Below are positions 5,784 to 13,286 of a DNA stretch of 64,000 bases, piece after piece. Numbering within the stretch: position 1 is the stretch's first letter; every line of letters starts with the position of its first letter. The position numbers and the translations under genes were made by a program. The notes beneath the pieces are model-generated. The model did not search any database. It was not told the origin of the DNA and worked only from the letters and a program-made list of their open reading frames with translations. Origin of the DNA: Litoribacter populi (GTDB lineage Bacteria > Bacteroidota > Bacteroidia > Cytophagales > Cyclobacteriaceae); the NCBI RefSeq assembly GCF_007483685.1, contig NZ_VMKN01000001.1, forward strand, positions 2,096,393 through 2,160,392. Direction: 5' to 3'.

Positions 5784-6638
5784 ATGGCGAAAAACCAAAC
5801 CAAACCAGCCCAATCCCAATCAACCCAACCTGGAAAGGAAGATGATATGAACCCTGAACCTCAGGTAGGCAAGGGAAATGTAGTAGTTCAAAAGCTAAAA
5901 GGAAAAGTAGCTCTTATCACTGGCGGTGACAGCGGAATTGGGAGGGCAGTCGCCGTGGCGTTTGCCCAACATGGTGCAAATGTGGTCATTTCCTATCTTA
6001 ATGAGGAGAAGGACGCCCGAGAGACTTTGCAACTGGTAGAAAATCACGGGCAAAAAGCTATTTTAATTGGAGGGGATGTGCGAAGTGCGGATCATTGCCG
6101 AAAATTAGTAAATCAAACTGTAGCTGAATTTGGACAGTTGGATATTTTGGTCAACAATGCCGCAAAACAATTTCCTCAAGAAAACTTTGAAGATATTAGT
6201 GAGAAGCAACTCGTTGAGACATTTGAAACCAACATTTTTTCTATTTTTTATGTAACTAAAGCAGCTCTACCTCATCTGAGAAAAGGAAGTAGTATTATCA
6301 ATACCTCATCCGTCACTGCATACCGAGGAAGTCATCACCTCATTGATTATGCTTCTACTAAGGGAGCAATTGTATCTTTTACCCGTTCCCTCTCCAAAAA
6401 TTTAGCTTCCAAAGGAATTAGGGTCAATGGTGTGGCCCCTGGCCCAATTTGGACACCACTTATACCTGCTACTTTTCCTGAAGAGCATGTAGATAATTTT
6501 GGTAAGGATGTGCCTTTGGGCCGGCCTGGAGAACCTGCAGAAGTGGCGCCAAGCTATGTGTTTTTGGCCTCAGATGATTCTAGCTATATGACAGGTCAGT
6601 TTCTTCATCCTAATGGTGGGGAAATTATTAATACTTAA
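5784..6638 (+). CDS. SDR family oxidoreductase, stress-type
   Basis: 284 residues. A roughly 38-residue polar N-terminal extension rich in Gln, Pro and Lys precedes a classical Rossmann short-chain dehydrogenase: cofactor motif TGGDSGIG at 46-53, NNAA at 124-127, catalytic Ser about 175, Tyr189 and Lys193. The extension is characteristic of the YghA/YdaD-like branch; B. subtilis YdaD belongs to the general stress regulon. The substrate is unknown. The gene lies between two small charged-protein genes, probably in one transcript with the hydrolase at 6952. Confidence 0.88.
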   Translation: MAKNQTKPAQSQSTQPGKEDDMNPEPQVGKGNVVVQKLKGKVALITGGDSGIGRAVAVAFAQHGANVVISYLNEEKDARETLQLVENHGQKAILIGGDVRSADHCRKLVNQTVAEFGQLDILVNNAAKQFPQENFEDISEKQLVETFETNIFSIFYVTKAALPHLRKGSSIINTSSVTAYRGSHHLIDYASTKGAIVSFTRSLSKNLASKGIRVNGVAPGPIWTPLIPATFPEEHVDNFGKDVPLGRPGEPAEVAPSYVFLASDDSSYMTGQFLHPNGGEIINT

Positions 6639-6672: not shown

Positions 6673-6948
6673 ATGATTAATTCGAATATTAATTTCAACC
6701 CATTTCTGCAAGCAATTCCATTTATATCACTTGGTTCGAATAACAAAGACGATAGAAAAGATTCCAAAGAAAACAGACCGCAAAGGGACGAGCATAAAAA
6801 GGATGAAGCCATTGAAGAATTTGTAGAACCAGACCCAAATGCCAAACCTAAGAAAAAGAAAAAGCCAGAAAAAGATGACAAAATGGGTAGAAGTAAGGAA
6901 GCTGAGGAGGGGCCTTCAGATGAAAGAGATAGATATATGAATGATTAA
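6673..6948 (+). CDS. Small, highly charged, probably disordered protein
   Basis: 91 residues: a hydrophobic start (about 5-22, 'NINFNPFLQAIPFISLG') and then an almost entirely charged tail with Lys runs and Glu/Asp clusters ('PKKKKKPEK'). It starts 34 bases after the SDR stop and ends 3 bases before the ATG of the next gene, so translation is probably coupled. No known domain recognised. The disordered charged tail resembles small stress-linked proteins, but that is only a resemblance. Confidence 0.6.
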   Translation: MINSNINFNPFLQAIPFISLGSNNKDDRKDSKENRPQRDEHKKDEAIEEFVEPDPNAKPKKKKKPEKDDKMGRSKEAEEGPSDERDRYMND

Positions 6949-6951
6949 GAT

Positions 6952-7881
6952 ATGAGCAATCAAGAAAAAGTCCATGACCTTACGCTAACCCGCATACTTG
7001 GCAAGTACCCTGAAATACCCGTTGGGGGACCTACTTTACTGGTCAGCGCGGGGGTTCATGGAAATGAACCGAGTGGAGTCATAGCCCTTAAAAAGGTATT
7101 TAATAAATTAGAAAAAGAAAAGCCTCAAATAAAAGGTCAAATAATTGGGGTTTGTGGAAATCTAAGAGCCCTAAAAGAGCAAGTTCGCCTGGTAGATCGG
7201 GATTTAAATAGAATTTGCACTCCTGATAATGTTTCAAGCATCGAAATGGGAGAGGAGTTGGATTTTCATGAGGCCAAAGAATTTCAAGAACTTCTCAAGG
7301 TTATCGAAGAAATTGAAGAAAATCCACTTTCTACTAGGCTGTTTTTCATGGACCTGCATACTACCTCATCACCTACTGTTCCTTACATAAGCGTAAATAA
7401 AGGTGAAGAGTGTTATAATTTTGCGATGAAATTCCCTCTTCCTGTAGCGAAAGGGATAGAGAAATATATTCCAGGACACTTTGATCATTATCTAACTTTA
7501 CTTGGACATGTGGGTTTCACAGTTGAGGCAGGTCAACATGAGGCTCCGGAATCTGTTGAGTATCACGAAGCGATGGTTTTACTAGGATTAGTTAATACTG
7601 GTTTAATTAAGGAAAAGGAGCTGAATGATTTTCAGGTTTATTTTGATAAACTGAAAGAAACCTTTGGGGGAGATGAGGGGTATGAAGTAGTACATCGACA
7701 CCATATCGAAGTTGGTGATGACTTTAAGATGGAGCCTGGATATTCGAACTTTAAGGAAGTGAAAAAGGGAGAGCTTTTGGCTTACTCCAATGATGAGCCG
7801 GTCTACTCAACCATGGATGGTAGGATATTTCTCCCCCTCTATCAAAGTCAGGGGAGCGATGGGTTTTTCATCGTGAGATAA
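6952..7881 (+). CDS. Succinylglutamate desuccinylase/aspartoacylase family hydrolase
   Basis: 309 residues with the M14-like zinc signature: HGNE at 36-39 (His and Glu ligands), 'DLHTT' at about 129 (His ligand) and a catalytic-Glu region 'TVEAGQHEAP' near 194-203. Family members cut N-acyl amino acids such as N-acetylaspartate or N-succinylglutamate. No arginine-succinyltransferase pathway genes are near, so that substrate is unlikely. It converges on an ATP-grasp ligase gene and a DUF1704 peptidase gene, a grouping that suggests making and cutting an amide-linked metabolite or peptide tag. Confidence 0.85.
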   Translation: MSNQEKVHDLTLTRILGKYPEIPVGGPTLLVSAGVHGNEPSGVIALKKVFNKLEKEKPQIKGQIIGVCGNLRALKEQVRLVDRDLNRICTPDNVSSIEMGEELDFHEAKEFQELLKVIEEIEENPLSTRLFFMDLHTTSSPTVPYISVNKGEECYNFAMKFPLPVAKGIEKYIPGHFDHYLTLLGHVGFTVEAGQHEAPESVEYHEAMVLLGLVNTGLIKEKELNDFQVYFDKLKETFGGDEGYEVVHRHHIEVGDDFKMEPGYSNFKEVKKGELLAYSNDEPVYSTMDGRIFLPLYQSQGSDGFFIVR

Positions 7882-7914
7882 AAAGAAAGACCGGAAATTT
7901 TCCGGCCTTTCTTT
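7882..7914. terminator. Bidirectional terminator between convergent operons
   Basis: The stem AAAGAAAGACCGGA / TCCGGCCTTTCTTT (one G-T pair) with a short AT loop has A and T runs on both sides, so it can end both the hydrolase gene and the ATP-grasp gene. Confidence 0.8.
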
Positions 7915-7917
7915 GTA

Positions 7918-8964
7918 TTAGACATCTAATGTCGCTAAATAAGAATTAGGTAACTTACCATCATAGTATTTTTGATATTCAATCTTTTTTTCGATAGCAT
8001 TTATTATCGCTGCTGAAAACTTTTCTTTCTCTAGCTTTTCAATACTCACAATTCCTCCTGGGCTATCTAGATTTAGTTCCATAATCTTATCACCCACTAT
8101 ATCAATTCCGGCCATAAACATGCCGTCTCTTTTTAGTTTAGGTCCTACAATATTGCAAAGCCTTTTTATATTATCCGTTATTTGTGCCTTTTGGGGGACT
8201 CCACCTGCGTGGATGTTGCTTCTGATATCATCGGCTTTGTTGACCCGATGCATAGCGGCGGTTTTACCTTTAACTTCAAGGATCTTTCCGTTGAGCATAA
8301 TTACTCTTACATCCCCATCTTTAGCCGCCGGTAGGTATTCTTGAGCAATCACATAGCCATATCGATTAATTGATTCCACAATCTGATTTAAATTGGTGGA
8401 ATTGTCCATGAGGAATACATCCTTGCCCCCAGAACCCTGTAATGGTTTTAAAATAATTTTTTCTCCCTGTTCTTTATAAAACTCTTTAATATCATCTGCA
8501 TTTCTTGATATCAAGGTTTTTGGACGAACTTCTTCAGGGAAATGTTGAAAGTACATTTTATTAAATGCAGTCATAAGATTATAGGGGTCATTAAGCACGA
8601 GAACACCTTTTTCCAAAGCGATTTGTCCAAAAATCATCCCTGCAGTTTGTGCCCAGGCTCTATCACCTCCATCTTCACAGGGATTGTTTCTCAAAAATAT
8701 CACATCAAGTTCTTCAGAAGATACGTGCACTCTTTCCTTGGCATTGGCTTGAATAGCTTTAAGGAAATTTTCCATGCTTCTATTTTTGCCATTTTGGACT
8801 TTTACTGCAAATGCACCCATATGACCATTGGCCATATAGTTTAAGTCCCCGACACCCATTAGGTATACTTCATGTCCTTTGTGAACGGCTGTTGACAACA
8901 AAAGCGTTGTGTCGTACCATGCCTCCTCAGTGGCTACGTCATTTACTACTACTCCAATTTTCAT
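7918..8964 (-). CDS. ATP-grasp ligase, glutathione-synthetase-like
   Basis: 348 residues. An N-terminal pre-ATP-grasp domain is followed by ATP-grasp features: 'EKIILKPLQGSGGKDVF' (ATP-binding Lys and Gly-rich loop), 'VIAQEYLPAAKDGDVRVIML' and the metal-binding end 'GIDIVGDKIMELNLDSPGG'. These match the glutathione synthetase/RimK group, which joins a carboxylate to an amine using ATP. No gamma-glutamylcysteine synthetase gene is near, so glutathione is not assured as the product. The gene lies 25 bases downstream of the DUF1704 gene on the same strand, so they form an operon. Confidence 0.82.
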   Translation of the reverse strand: MKIGVVVNDVATEEAWYDTTLLLSTAVHKGHEVYLMGVGDLNYMANGHMGAFAVKVQNGKNRSMENFLKAIQANAKERVHVSSEELDVIFLRNNPCEDGGDRAWAQTAGMIFGQIALEKGVLVLNDPYNLMTAFNKMYFQHFPEEVRPKTLISRNADDIKEFYKEQGEKIILKPLQGSGGKDVFLMDNSTNLNQIVESINRYGYVIAQEYLPAAKDGDVRVIMLNGKILEVKGKTAAMHRVNKADDIRSNIHAGGVPQKAQITDNIKRLCNIVGPKLKRDGMFMAGIDIVGDKIMELNLDSPGGIVSIEKLEKEKFSAAIINAIEKKIEYQKYYDGKLPNSYLATLDV

Positions 8965-8989
8965 GTTTGTGGTATAAAGTGGTTGTTTT

Positions 8990-10822
8990 TCATTTAATCA
9001 TATCAATCAGGGACAGCCCATCCTTGATTTTTTCCAAGCGTTCCAAGGAATTTTCATTTAGGAAAAACCTAGGAGTCATGGGTGCAGGTTTTAAGATCTT
9101 TCTCATCCTGAGTTCTTCTATCAACGGAATGTGCTTAAGGGCAATTTTGCCAATAAAGAGTGGTTCCAATTCACCGCCATCTTTGAGATAATCTATTAAC
9201 TTAATTAGCCCTCTGAGGTAAATGATATCCTTTGTACATCCACCCCCCTGGTGGATTCTGGCAGTGACTTGAAAAGCAGATTCTTTATCTAAATTGTACT
9301 GTTGAGTAAGCTCCATAAAAGTTTCCTCAAAGGTGGACCCTTCTGTGAGGCAATGGCCAGCAACTACTCTGGCGGCTAATAAACGTAATCTGTCACCAGT
9401 AAGTCCACCTACCAGATATTCGGCAAGTACGGCTATCCCTTCTTGTAATTCTTCATAGCCAGCAAATCCGATGCTCAATTGTTTAAAAGGCTGAGCCATG
9501 CCATTATAAAATGTTAATACGTGTGTGCCAATCTCGTGGTGGACCAATGCTTCAACCCTTTCTTCAGGCACCTTAAAACTTTTTCCTATATAGAGCTGTC
9601 CTTTAGAAACCAACATTCCGACGATGTCATTCTTCACCTCAACTTTTGCATCAAGCCTTGGGTAATGCTTTTGGTAAAACTTTACCTCTTCTCGGCATCT
9701 ATCAGCAAGTTCATCAGCTTCTACCCAGCGAGAATTGCTAAAATCCTCTGGTGGAATTTCCTTCAACAGGTATCGTGCGGTTTCATATAAATCCTTATCT
9801 ACAGAACTATATAATCTGATACTGCTGAACATAAAGTTGGAAGTTCCCCTCTCTTTCAACATGGTTATCTGCTTTTCTAATTCTTCCCTTTTATCAGAAA
9901 ATAAAATGGCCAAAGTAGGATCTTCTATACTTCGGATGTTGATTTTGAATAACTCCTCCTTCAATTGATCAGGGTCTATGGGCAATAGTCGATATAGAAA
10001 TTTGGGATTTGTTCGATAACTTTTCTCAATGAATTCAGCCTTGGCGTCCATGGTGTTTATAGGGGATATGAGAAGCAGAAACTGAAAGTTTTCTTGGATT
10101 TTATACAGCTGCTTATCAACATCCCATACTGAAGGACCAATTACCGTGCTACCTAAAACCTGATAATTTCGGATGTCAAAAGTGGTCTGCACACGAATGA
10201 ATTCGTAGATGGACTTTCTTAAAATTTTTGAAAATTGGGTTTTGAAATCCCTGAATACCATATAATAGAATTCGTCCTTTTCCTCGTCTTCGAAAAAAGG
10301 CGGGATTTCTAAACCAACCAAATACGCGCCTGCTTCCTGACATTGGTCTAATGTCAAGAGGGGAGGTAGATCTTCAGGATGTCTATTTGGAGTGTATTCA
10401 ATCTCAGCCTTTAGGTCATGCTGATGTGAGCAGAAGTCGACCAAGCCCTCATAGAGTGAATCCACTGTGGCAGGTGCTTTTTCTTTTGAAGTTTTAATTT
10501 TAAATGTATTGCATTCTGCATCACCGATCCATATTTCAATAATCATCACTGCCCGATATTCTTCTGAAAGGGTTTTGGAAATTAATTTGATTATTTCAGC
10601 CATTTTGTCGTTGGAGTCCTTTTCAGTATTGGTGACGAGATAAGAGGATTCTCCAAGTACCAAACGCAGTATTTTTTTATTGTCGGGATCAGGGTTTCTA
10701 TAGATCAAAAGGAAGGGAAGTCGCCGTTCAATTTTTACTTTCCCGTGAGGTTCTAGGTTTAAATTGAGAGACTTTCCTGTTTTTAAAGCCTTTTGAATTG
10801 ATTCTCTGGTTTTTTCAGTCAT
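8990..10822 (-). CDS. DUF1704 / QEGLA-motif zinc peptidase, MATCAP-like
   Basis: 610 residues. The metallopeptidase core has HEIGTH at about 427-433 and a downstream 'LQEGIAVLAEY' helix near 460 that supplies the Glu ligand; here the family QEGLA motif reads QEGIA. The C-terminal 'RIHQGGGCTKDIIYLRG' is also typical. Bacterial members were named flavohaemoglobin expression-modulating proteins. The same fold includes eukaryotic MATCAP, which removes the C-terminal tyrosine of tubulin. The large N-terminal part (1-360) is alpha/beta and of unknown role. With the ATP-grasp gene it may remove a residue that the ligase adds. No signal peptide; cytoplasmic. Confidence 0.82.
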   Translation of the reverse strand: MTEKTRESIQKALKTGKSLNLNLEPHGKVKIERRLPFLLIYRNPDPDNKKILRLVLGESSYLVTNTEKDSNDKMAEIIKLISKTLSEEYRAVMIIEIWIGDAECNTFKIKTSKEKAPATVDSLYEGLVDFCSHQHDLKAEIEYTPNRHPEDLPPLLTLDQCQEAGAYLVGLEIPPFFEDEEKDEFYYMVFRDFKTQFSKILRKSIYEFIRVQTTFDIRNYQVLGSTVIGPSVWDVDKQLYKIQENFQFLLLISPINTMDAKAEFIEKSYRTNPKFLYRLLPIDPDQLKEELFKINIRSIEDPTLAILFSDKREELEKQITMLKERGTSNFMFSSIRLYSSVDKDLYETARYLLKEIPPEDFSNSRWVEADELADRCREEVKFYQKHYPRLDAKVEVKNDIVGMLVSKGQLYIGKSFKVPEERVEALVHHEIGTHVLTFYNGMAQPFKQLSIGFAGYEELQEGIAVLAEYLVGGLTGDRLRLLAARVVAGHCLTEGSTFEETFMELTQQYNLDKESAFQVTARIHQGGGCTKDIIYLRGLIKLIDYLKDGGELEPLFIGKIALKHIPLIEELRMRKILKPAPMTPRFFLNENSLERLEKIKDGLSLIDMIK

Positions 10823-11883: not shown

Positions 11884-12192
11884 ATGAAAAAGCTAATGTT
11901 AATCTGCGCTTTGGGAGCGTTTGGCTTTACCGCTGTAAATGCTGCACCAGTTTCAGTTTTGAACACTACCGAAATCTATCAGGAAACTACTAGAGTAGCT
12001 CCGGAAAACCTTCCGCAACAAGTTAAAGATGCTATTGATAGAGACACTGAAGATAAGGATGCAAGAATTGTTTCTGCAAATCAAAGAACCAAAGATGGTC
12101 AAATGATGTATGAAGTTACCTTCCAAAAAGAAGATAAAACTTGGACCAAAAAATATGATGCACAAGGAAACAAGGTAGATGACGATAAGTAA
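11884..12192 (+). CDS. Small secreted PepSY-like protein, paralogue of the preceding gene
   Basis: 102 residues with a signal peptide ending near 'GFTAVNAAP'. The mature part is one small domain: 'VKDAIDRDTEDKDARIV', 'KDGQMMYEVTF', 'KKYDAQGNKVDDD'. It aligns with the C-terminal 55 residues of the upstream lipoprotein. The intergenic gap is 57 bases and a terminator follows, so the pair is likely one operon, one product on a membrane anchor and one soluble in the periplasm. Confidence 0.7.
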   Translation: MKKLMLICALGAFGFTAVNAAPVSVLNTTEIYQETTRVAPENLPQQVKDAIDRDTEDKDARIVSANQRTKDGQMMYEVTFQKEDKTWTKKYDAQGNKVDDDK

Positions 12193-12219
12193 TCTATTTA
12201 TTTCTTACAATAACGAAAG

Positions 12220-12249
12220 TGCCAGACTTATGTCTGGCATTTTTTTTCT
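12220..12249 (+). terminator. Rho-independent terminator after the PepSY-like pair
   Basis: Perfect stem TGCCAGAC / GTCTGGCA with loop TTAT, followed by nine T. Confidence 0.85.
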
Positions 12250-12271
12250 TTAGATTTAAATTCAAAAGAAA

Positions 12272-12835
12272 ATGAAAGAGGACCATGAAAAAAAGGTTTC
12301 TGAAAAGGAATCTGATAGAAAAGATTTGCTTGTCGGAATGTTCAAGAATAGAGATGATGCCGAATTAGCTTTTGACGATTTGAATCAACTAGGGTACACC
12401 AATGAGGAGATCAACCTCTTGATGTCTGAAGAGACGAGAACAAGATATTATAATAATAAAGAAAAAGAGAAATATGACACCGAATTGGGGAATAAAGCCG
12501 CAGAAGGAGCAGGCACTGGCTCCCTTGTGGGTGGGGCTTTGGGCGCTATTGCAGGTGCGGTGGCTGCCATAGGAACCACCTTGTTGATACCAGGTCTTGG
12601 AGTAGTTATTGCCGGACCGATTGTCGCTGGATTGGCTGGTGCCGGTGCAGGAAGTTTAGCAGGTGGGTTAATTGGGGCACTGGTCGGTCTTGGCATTCCT
12701 GAAGACAAAGCACATCTTTATGAGAAAGGAATCAAAGAGGGAAATATTGTTATTGGGGTGTATCCCCGGAATGACGAGGAGAGAAAAATAATTAGTAACA
12801 AGTGGAGAAACCGCAATGTATTGAACATTCATTAA
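12272..12835 (+). CDS. General stress protein 17M-like with glycine-zipper membrane domain
   Basis: 187 residues. An acidic N-terminal segment leads into a YflT/17M-like fold: 'LLVGMFKNRDDAELAFDDL' at about 24-42, with the closing strand 'GNIVIGVYPRNDEE' near the end. Inserted between them is a long Gly/Ala zipper (about 75-150, e.g. 'GSLVGGALGAIAGAVAAIGT') able to insert in or associate with membrane. Such proteins are induced by salt, heat or desiccation in many bacteria. It is a single gene upstream of YtxH, which fits a stress cluster. Confidence 0.8.
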   Translation: MKEDHEKKVSEKESDRKDLLVGMFKNRDDAELAFDDLNQLGYTNEEINLLMSEETRTRYYNNKEKEKYDTELGNKAAEGAGTGSLVGGALGAIAGAVAAIGTTLLIPGLGVVIAGPIVAGLAGAGAGSLAGGLIGALVGLGIPEDKAHLYEKGIKEGNIVIGVYPRNDEERKIISNKWRNRNVLNIH

Positions 12836-12965
12836 ACAATTTTCCATTTAAATGATTTAATAATCAGTGGTATAATAATTGCGACTTTTTCAAGTGGGTT
12901 ATTTATCATGAGAATTATTAAAAGTATAATCTCTTTTATCTATTACTTTAACCAATAAATAAACT

Positions 12966-13286
12966 ATGAGCGCAGGAAAAGTATTGTTAGGAATAGCCGC
13001 TGGAGTGGCGGTAGGTATACAAATCGGTATTCTGATCGCCCCGGAAGAAGGCAAGAAGACACGCAAAAAACTGTCCAAAAAAGGAGAGGATTACTTGGAT
13101 GATTTGGGATCACGATTCAATCATCTGATAGATGACATCAACAGTCAAGTATCTAAAGTTAATAAAGATATAAAAGAACTTGCTGATAAAGGTAAATCCC
13201 TATCAGAAGATCTTGCCAAAGAGGCTAAAAAAAAGGGGGATGACTTAAATAGTGACGCCAAGTCAGCTTTGAAAAAATCAGTATAA
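12966..13286 (+). CDS. YtxH domain-containing protein
   Basis: 106 residues: an N-terminal hydrophobic helix (about 5-27, 'VLLGIAAGVAVGIQIGILIA') directly followed by the YtxH signature 'APEEGKKTRKKLSKKGED' and then a Lys/Asp-rich amphipathic helical tail with coiled-coil character. YtxH proteins are small membrane-anchored general-stress proteins of unknown biochemical role. A strong terminator follows. Confidence 0.85.
   Translation: MSAGKVLLGIAAGVAVGIQIGILIAPEEGKKTRKKLSKKGEDYLDDLGSRFNHLIDDINSQVSKVNKDIKELADKGKSLSEDLAKEAKKKGDDLNSDAKSALKKSV

Follow-up and report, generated by a model that had tools for sequence, protein, structure and literature searches.

A putative bacterial module of a GshB-like ATP-grasp ligase, a MATCAP metallopeptidase and an FGase- or AstE-type amidohydrolase

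Results

Gene arrangement in the Litoribacter populi locus

The window analysed here is a stretch of 64,000 nucleotides from the genome of Litoribacter populi (contig NZ_VMKN01000001.1, positions 2,096,393 to 2,160,392). Its region 6952-10822 contains three intact genes by open reading frame (ORF) analysis, encoding an AstE-type hydrolase, a ligase resembling glutathione synthetase (GshB) and a metallopeptidase of the MATCAP family (Table 1). The ligase gene starts 25 bp downstream of the MATCAP stop codon, on the same (minus) strand. Given this short gap, the two genes are probably co-transcribed, with MATCAP as the first and the ligase as the second gene of an operon. The AstE gene is convergent with the ligase gene; 36 bp separate the two stop codons, and a hairpin lies inside this gap. 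Terminator-like sites are not enriched in the region (4, compared with a shuffle mean of 3.9). A sequence-only reading of this DNA had described the same gene positions and convergent arrangement, with which the ORF coordinates and Pfam matches agree. The closest named relative that we found is Litoribacter ruber, whose MATCAP protein is 91% identical.

Table 1. Features of the module region, in window coordinates. Bit scores are followed by the cut-off of the respective model.
Feature	Position	Strand	Basis
AstE/AspA-type zinc amidohydrolase, 309 aa	6952-7881	+	PF24827, 71.9 bits (cut-off 25)
Hairpin followed by T-rich stretch, possible terminator	7891-7905	+	Between the two convergent stops
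GshB-like ATP-grasp ligase, PRK12458 subfamily, 348 aa	7918-8964	-	NF009110, 418.6 bits (cut-off 408)
MATCAP (DUF1704, QEGLA) metallopeptidase, 610 aa	8990-10822	-	PF08014, 281.4 bits (cut-off 27)
N-terminal domain of the MATCAP protein, residues 1-235, probable decayed FGase type	10118-10822	-	hhalign

Pairing of ligase and MATCAP across genomes

Co-occurrence was analysed in two genome samples, one of 59 relatives and one of 395 Bacteroidota genomes, with some genomes in both. MATCAP (PF08014) is present in 15 of the 59 relatives' genomes. The NF009110 ligase is encoded by 15 genes in 12 of these genomes, which score 402-490 bits, the next best match being at 93 bits. All 12 ligase-containing genomes carry MATCAP, and none of the 44 MATCAP-less genomes carries the ligase (Fisher p 4e-10; this and the following co-occurrence p-value overstate independence, as the samples overlap and the genomes are related). 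MATCAP adjoins 14 of the 15 ligase genes, the exception being G052:C25. In the phylum sample, where 19 of 395 genomes have MATCAP, a ligase scoring above 390 bits was found in 18 genomes, every one of them with MATCAP (p 3e-30), and all 20 such ligase genes lie within 2.5 kb of a MATCAP domain; one genome (G249) with a weaker ligase match of 214.8 bits and no MATCAP was left out of the count. The MATCAP and ligase trees show the same two-clade split with support of 100/100, and two MATCAP subtypes pair with two ligase subtypes. Adjacency of ligase and MATCAP in the relatives is far beyond chance, and the pair forms a genuine unit. The sequence-only reading had stated that ATP-grasp and DUF1704 genes are repeatedly found together and had proposed a neighbourhood analysis in Bacteroidota; both samples bear the statement out. 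At one locus (L033:6928-9064), a tandem pair of ligase copies follows a single MATCAP gene. Among viral contigs we found no MATCAP and three ligase-like matches; just one of these, L068, is close, and its contig starts inside MATCAP.

A third gene, usually an FGase

Profile scans were carried out on a set of 49 MATCAP loci, consisting of the window and 48 other stretches, with near-duplicates kept. At most loci with both MATCAP and ligase, the third component is a protein resembling N-formylglutamate amidohydrolase (FGase, PF05013), which had no place in the sequence-only reading. Two layouts recur: in type A, the ligase gene is followed by an FGase that is either fused to MATCAP or precedes it, and in type B, an FGase gene is followed by a MATCAP gene with an N-terminal domain and then by the ligase gene. 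We define the module as a MATCAP gene adjoined by a PRK12458-type ligase gene, with a hydrolase of the FGase or AstE type in the vicinity. This arrangement was found at 38 of the 41 MATCAP loci with a ligase, the window being one of the 38; the other three are L033, L034 and L068, which is cut by the contig end. Compared with solved FGase structures, the module FGase gives weak matches (2odf, E 0.0023; 2q7s, E 0.075).

The module also occurs on proteobacterial plasmids, from which loci were chosen by hand. All 10 rhizobial loci examined, picked from 127 plasmid records in which PF08014 was matched, are of type B (FGase-MATCAP-ligase order), and in six of them the annotation reads N-formylglutamate amidohydrolase, QEGLA motif protein and glutathione synthetase or synthase. 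One locus (L042), on pSymB of Sinorhizobium meliloti 1021, carries FGase, MATCAP and ligase. The four gammaproteobacterial plasmid loci are more varied: Photobacterium sp. GJ3 has type A including the ligase, Vibrio sp. HDW18 has an FGase-MATCAP fusion with no ligase in the vicinity, and the Pseudoalteromonas and Legionella loci contain just a short MATCAP. L054 and L055 are composites, with a type-A ligase and FGase upstream of a type-B MATCAP and ligase.

The AstE hydrolase of the window

FGase is present at 33 of the 41 MATCAP loci with a ligase, and AstE was found at none of these 33 within the flank examined. One of the eight loci without FGase is the truncated L068; five of the other seven have AstE. 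Over the 40 informative loci, this mutual exclusion of FGase and AstE has a Fisher p of 3e-5, and it makes the window AstE look like a stand-in for FGase. The two loci with neither hydrolase are L033, whose genome encodes an AstE elsewhere that clusters with those of the modules at moderate support (87/85), and L034, where a second module of the genome (L027) includes an FGase. FGase (PF05013) was not found anywhere in the genome of the window (G000) or in two others (G001 and G032), and in all three AstE adjoins the module. At two flavobacterial loci with no FGase nearby, L052 and L066, the ligase gene is followed after 87 and 15 bp, respectively, by an AstE gene in the same orientation. In a tree, the module AstE genes and the AstE of G026 cluster together with moderate support (87/85). 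AstE as a core component of all modules was considered and rejected, FGase being in its place at most loci.

The window AstE has the HxxE, DxNR and DxH residues of the AstE/AspA family; H36, E39, D84, N86, R87, D134 and H136 are common to all 25 aligned AstE proteins. Its scores fall short of the equivalog cut-offs for both succinylglutamate desuccinylase and aspartoacylase (TIGR03242, 45.4 vs 305.65 bits; NF002601, 52 vs 180 bits). AstE and FGase share an M14-type fold. Their hhalign score of 35.0 exceeds those of all 100 shuffles (maximum 24.4), with the DLNR and DxH motifs paired.

Among 25 full-length AstE genes in the relatives, gene coordinates place 17 beside a gene for a protein of about 640 residues (GCS2-CBS), three beside the module and five elsewhere; AstE thus recurs as a partner of genes resembling amide ligases. 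The GCS2 assignment is weak, a Pfam match being obtained in three of four examples and exceeding the cut-off in two. At L071, L075, L077 and L084, as at the 17 genes counted above, the protein encoded directly beside the AstE-type hydrolase has two CBS domains and weakly matches GCS2, a carboxylate-amine ligase family, so that this is a further pairing of a ligase with a hydrolase.

The MATCAP protein and its N-terminal domain

The PF08014 match spans residues 263-595 of the MATCAP protein. A study of the family describes it by an HExxxH motif plus a third ligand in an EG motif (PMC10499314). In the window protein, the HExxxH residues H429, E430 and H434 as well as E461-G462 are invariant across all 15 aligned MATCAP proteins, and they are aligned with human KIAA0895L. 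A profile match to the human KIAA0895L/MATCAP structure (7z5g) has E 3.7e-13, and the window protein by itself matches human MATCAP with no better than E 0.083. The cut-off of the QEGLA hypothetical equivalog TIGR02421 is missed (318.6 vs 338.65 bits), and we read the window protein as a divergent subtype relative to this model.

Ahead of the MATCAP domain lies a region that the sequence-only reading did not mention and for which no Pfam match was obtained (residues 1-235). An alignment of 27 such N-domains to the FGase domains of nine FGase-MATCAP fusions has an hhalign probability of 97.5 (E 5e-12, 208 columns, 16% identity); its score is 83.5, the highest among 100 column shuffles being 23.4. 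In the 12 N-domains inspected out of the 27, the FGase motifs AIHxGH, EEDP, SRFExDLNR and DIHSYN have been lost, except for one histidine in L027. Judged from this alignment, the region is a decayed FGase domain. Type B would therefore combine a separate FGase with a decayed FGase fused to MATCAP. Among the fusions without a neighbouring ligase, those at L022:7860-9857 and L044:7143-9134 have lost FGase motif residues, and those at L021 and L023 have kept them. A structure model of the 610-residue protein, made with one relative (L019), had a mean predicted local distance difference test score (pLDDT) of 34.4 and was discarded.

The ligase

Three Pfam families match the ligase above their cut-offs: GSH-S_ATP (179.6 bits), RimK (70 bits) and GSH-S_N (45.6 bits). 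Among solved structures, the nearest match is E. coli glutathione synthetase (1gsa), with E 3.2e-40. Similarity to GshB extends along the whole ligase and similarity to RimK along a portion of it, and the ligase stays below the cut-off of the RimK subfamily TIGR00768 (90 vs 143.4 bits). Residues K173, R248, D288, E296 and N298 are invariant and aligned with E. coli GshB residues; the SPTCIRE motif of E. coli GshB is replaced by a PGG motif that is invariant in all 16 aligned members. Both GshB equivalog cut-offs are missed (NF003573, 227.5 vs 272 bits; TIGR01380, 212.5 vs 299.05 bits). In G000 we found no gene of the families PF04107 (GCS2) or PF04262 (Glu_cys_ligase) and no GCS2-CBS gene, other GshA types being outside the search, and the bacillithiol enzyme BshC is present. 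GCS2-CBS as the missing gamma-glutamylcysteine ligase of G000 was rejected, as the matches were to CBS domains alone. Ordinary glutathione synthesis by the ligase is unlikely, given the missed GshB cut-offs, the absence of these gamma-glutamylcysteine ligase families and the presence of BshC.

Neighbouring genes and small proteins

The sequence-only reading had envisaged small-protein substrates encoded alongside the module. This idea found no support: among 2637 ORFs of 22-130 residues within 2.5 kb of the module at 48 loci, there was no recurrent small-protein partner. The 10 small-ORF families present in at least three independent loci are all flavobacterial and, as read from coordinates, overlap longer conserved genes. 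Among the neighbours of the module we saw no recurrent acyltransferase, transporter or other gene for biosynthesis; besides MATCAP/FGase and ligase, the clusters found at most loci are a mixed cluster (10 loci), one that reflects flavobacterial synteny (8 loci) and the AstE cluster (5 loci).

Several neighbours are recorded here as individual observations. At L035:5865-9285, genes for an RLAN-RimK ATP-grasp protein, a GCS2 ligase and an FGase make up a separate cluster immediately upstream of the ligase-FGase-MATCAP genes, and FGase/RimK-like neighbours likewise occur in other relatives. Members of one protein cluster are encoded right behind the ligase in L026 (10999-11592, a macro-domain protein) and L028 (7634-8176), and a further member (L052:3554-4081) is located about 1.8 kb ahead of the MATCAP gene. 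In the window, a highly charged ORF of 91 residues (6673-6948) stops 3 bp ahead of AstE; L032 has the same gene (80% identity), and no BLAST match was found in the 15 other loci of L020-L035. Stress-type genes near the module (11884-13286 and 5784-6638) comprise those for a YtxH protein (59.8 bits), a YflT-like protein below the cut-off and an SDR protein of subfamily PRK06701.

Discussion

We propose that the module builds and takes apart an amino-acid conjugate connected with stress, probably a small peptide of glutamyl type, and that the window contains the AstE variant of this three-part module. The proposal is tentative, and we would give it slightly less than an even chance. The ATP-driven ligase would couple an amino acid to a small acceptor at the carboxylate of the latter; a small acceptor is favoured by the full-length resemblance to GshB and partial resemblance to RimK. 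This acceptor would most likely be a peptide of the glutamyl or N-acyl-glutamyl type, but not gamma-glutamylcysteine. AstE or FGase would cleave the amide adjoining a glutamate- or aspartate-like residue, and MATCAP would take off a terminal residue. A probable role of the decayed FGase domain is to recognise the substrate or to dock a separate, active hydrolase. AstE, AspA and FGase are hydrolases of N-acylated glutamate or aspartate. From this chemistry, and from the removal of glutamates by human TMCP2 (PMC10499314), we infer that the substrate is a glutamyl-type amide.

The conjugate would be set up and dismantled under stress, for which a fall in salinity is the best lead. In Photobacterium damselae at 1% vs 3% NaCl, two genes that carry the names GshB and QEGLA and have successive locus tags were up 38- and 27-fold (PMC10308900). 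In Vibrio vulnificus, a COG3930 gene and one annotated 'glutathione synthetase', again with successive tags, are both listed as specific to clade 2 (PMC3091676).

Several points weigh against this proposal. The roles of all three proteins are predicted from their families. MATCAP occurs without the NF009110 ligase in three of the 15 MATCAP-containing genomes of the relatives (G011, G025 and G050) and without the same ligase in one of the 19 of the phylum sample (G242), and eight of the 49 loci have no ligase beside MATCAP. The exclusion of AstE by FGase comes from about two lineages, the AstE and FGase profiles are only weakly alike (hhalign probability 28), and the window AstE, being convergent, is not co-transcribed with the ligase-MATCAP pair. 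The stress link comes from one transcriptome study of a gammaproteobacterium, in which the genes are recognised by name and locus tag (PMC10308900).

A protein target is kept open, given the kinship of MATCAP and the precedent of RimK and RimB, and a protein C-terminal tag is a possible product of the module. In such a cycle, the ligase would add residues to protein C-termini or side chains, and MATCAP, with FGase or AstE, would remove them. The MATCAP relatives that act on protein C-termini, among them the deglutamylase TMCP2 (PMC10499314), are consistent with it, as is the bacterial ATP-grasp/protease pair RimK/RimB, which writes and erases glutamate tags (PMC11957791). A related operon, rlo, is required during hypo-osmotic stress (PMC12239564), and low salt induced RimK too in the Photobacterium study (PMC10308900). 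However, the ligase is GshB-like throughout and falls below the RimK cut-off, and no small-protein gene recurs near the module; we consider a tagging cycle unlikely.

We think it slightly less probable still that the module carries out one-way biosynthesis, with a protected, N-acylated intermediate being ligated, then deacylated and trimmed to a peptide metabolite without any reversible cycle. FGase and AstE are deacylases by family, and in L035 the genes directly ahead of the module (RLAN-RimK, GCS2 and FGase) would suit a biosynthetic locus, but the lack of a recurrent acyltransferase, transporter or other biosynthetic gene across the module loci argues against it.

Equally doubtful, in our estimate, is the possibility that the ligase and MATCAP form a unit to which the window AstE is an unrelated neighbour. 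The convergent orientation and the hairpin between the stops point that way, as do the AstE homologues in many relatives without MATCAP (AstE matches in 25 of 59 genomes, MATCAP in 15). Against this stand the presence of AstE beside the module at five of seven informative loci without FGase and at none of 33 with it, its position close behind the ligase in L052 and L066, and the moderately supported cluster of module AstE genes. The claim of the sequence-only reading that the hydrolase belongs with the ligase-MATCAP pair therefore holds up in the form of an apparent substitute for the FGase of most such loci. That the ligase is an ordinary glutathione synthase, which the same reading had named as grounds for abandoning its hypothesis, is hardly credible: the subfamily annotation and full-length likeness to E. 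coli GshB speak for it, but both equivalog cut-offs are missed, SPTCIRE has become PGG, and G000 has BshC and none of the gamma-glutamylcysteine ligase families searched for (some GshA types were outside the search).

Bacterial MATCAP/DUF1704 proteins are annotated as 'flavohemoglobin expression-modulating QEGLA motif protein' and the partner ligases as 'glutathione synthetase', and both names are probably misleading; the transcriptome study treats the induced ligase next to QEGLA as GshB (PMC10308900). A module with interchangeable FGase or AstE and a decayed FGase domain would narrow the substrate to glutamyl or N-acyl-glutamyl amides. It also provides tractable operons, including that on pSymB of S. 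meliloti 1021, and places MATCAP, an enzyme known from tubulin, in a functional setting in bacteria. Searches of the open-access literature, judged by titles and abstract openings, gave no description of the module, and no paper on DUF1704 with ATP-grasp or on N-formylglutamate amidohydrolase with ATP-grasp; the DUF1704/MATCAP/KIAA0895 papers among the matches listed are eukaryotic by title. Iyer et al. reportedly surveyed amidoligase gene clusters in 2009, in which peptide-ligase genes are grouped with hydrolases.

Among known systems, RimK/RimB and RloC/RloA resemble the module in being operons of an ATP-grasp ligase and a peptidase (PMC11957791, PMC12239564), and RimB removes what RimK adds to the ribosomal protein RpsF. 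They differ in using a retropepsin-like protease, whereas the module has the metal enzymes MATCAP and FGase or AstE and a GshB-like ligase. Tubulin tyrosination and glutamylation involve a MATCAP-family peptidase with the HExxxH motif found in the window protein. In that system, ATP-grasp ligases (TTL/TTLL) are the writers and M14-type peptidases (CCP) are further erasers. Unlike the tubulin enzymes, the bacterial ligase is of the glutathione synthetase type and FGase and AstE are not CCPs, and no tubulin substrate is implied. It would be a long shot to see in the module a bacterial counterpart of the tubulin code, with an ATP-grasp writer and MATCAP and FGase/AstE erasers that reversibly add and remove terminal residues of cellular proteins under osmotic or general stress, and in the operon the source setting of eukaryotic MATCAP. 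GshB has its fold and full-length similarity in common with the window ligase and differs from it in the cut-offs, the SPTCIRE motif and the upstream gamma-glutamylcysteine ligase that was not found in G000 among the types searched. The module hydrolases, finally, share family and motifs with the FGase (PF05013) and AstE/AspA (PF24827) deacylases; they are not the characterised equivalogs, and here they are partners of a ligase and MATCAP.

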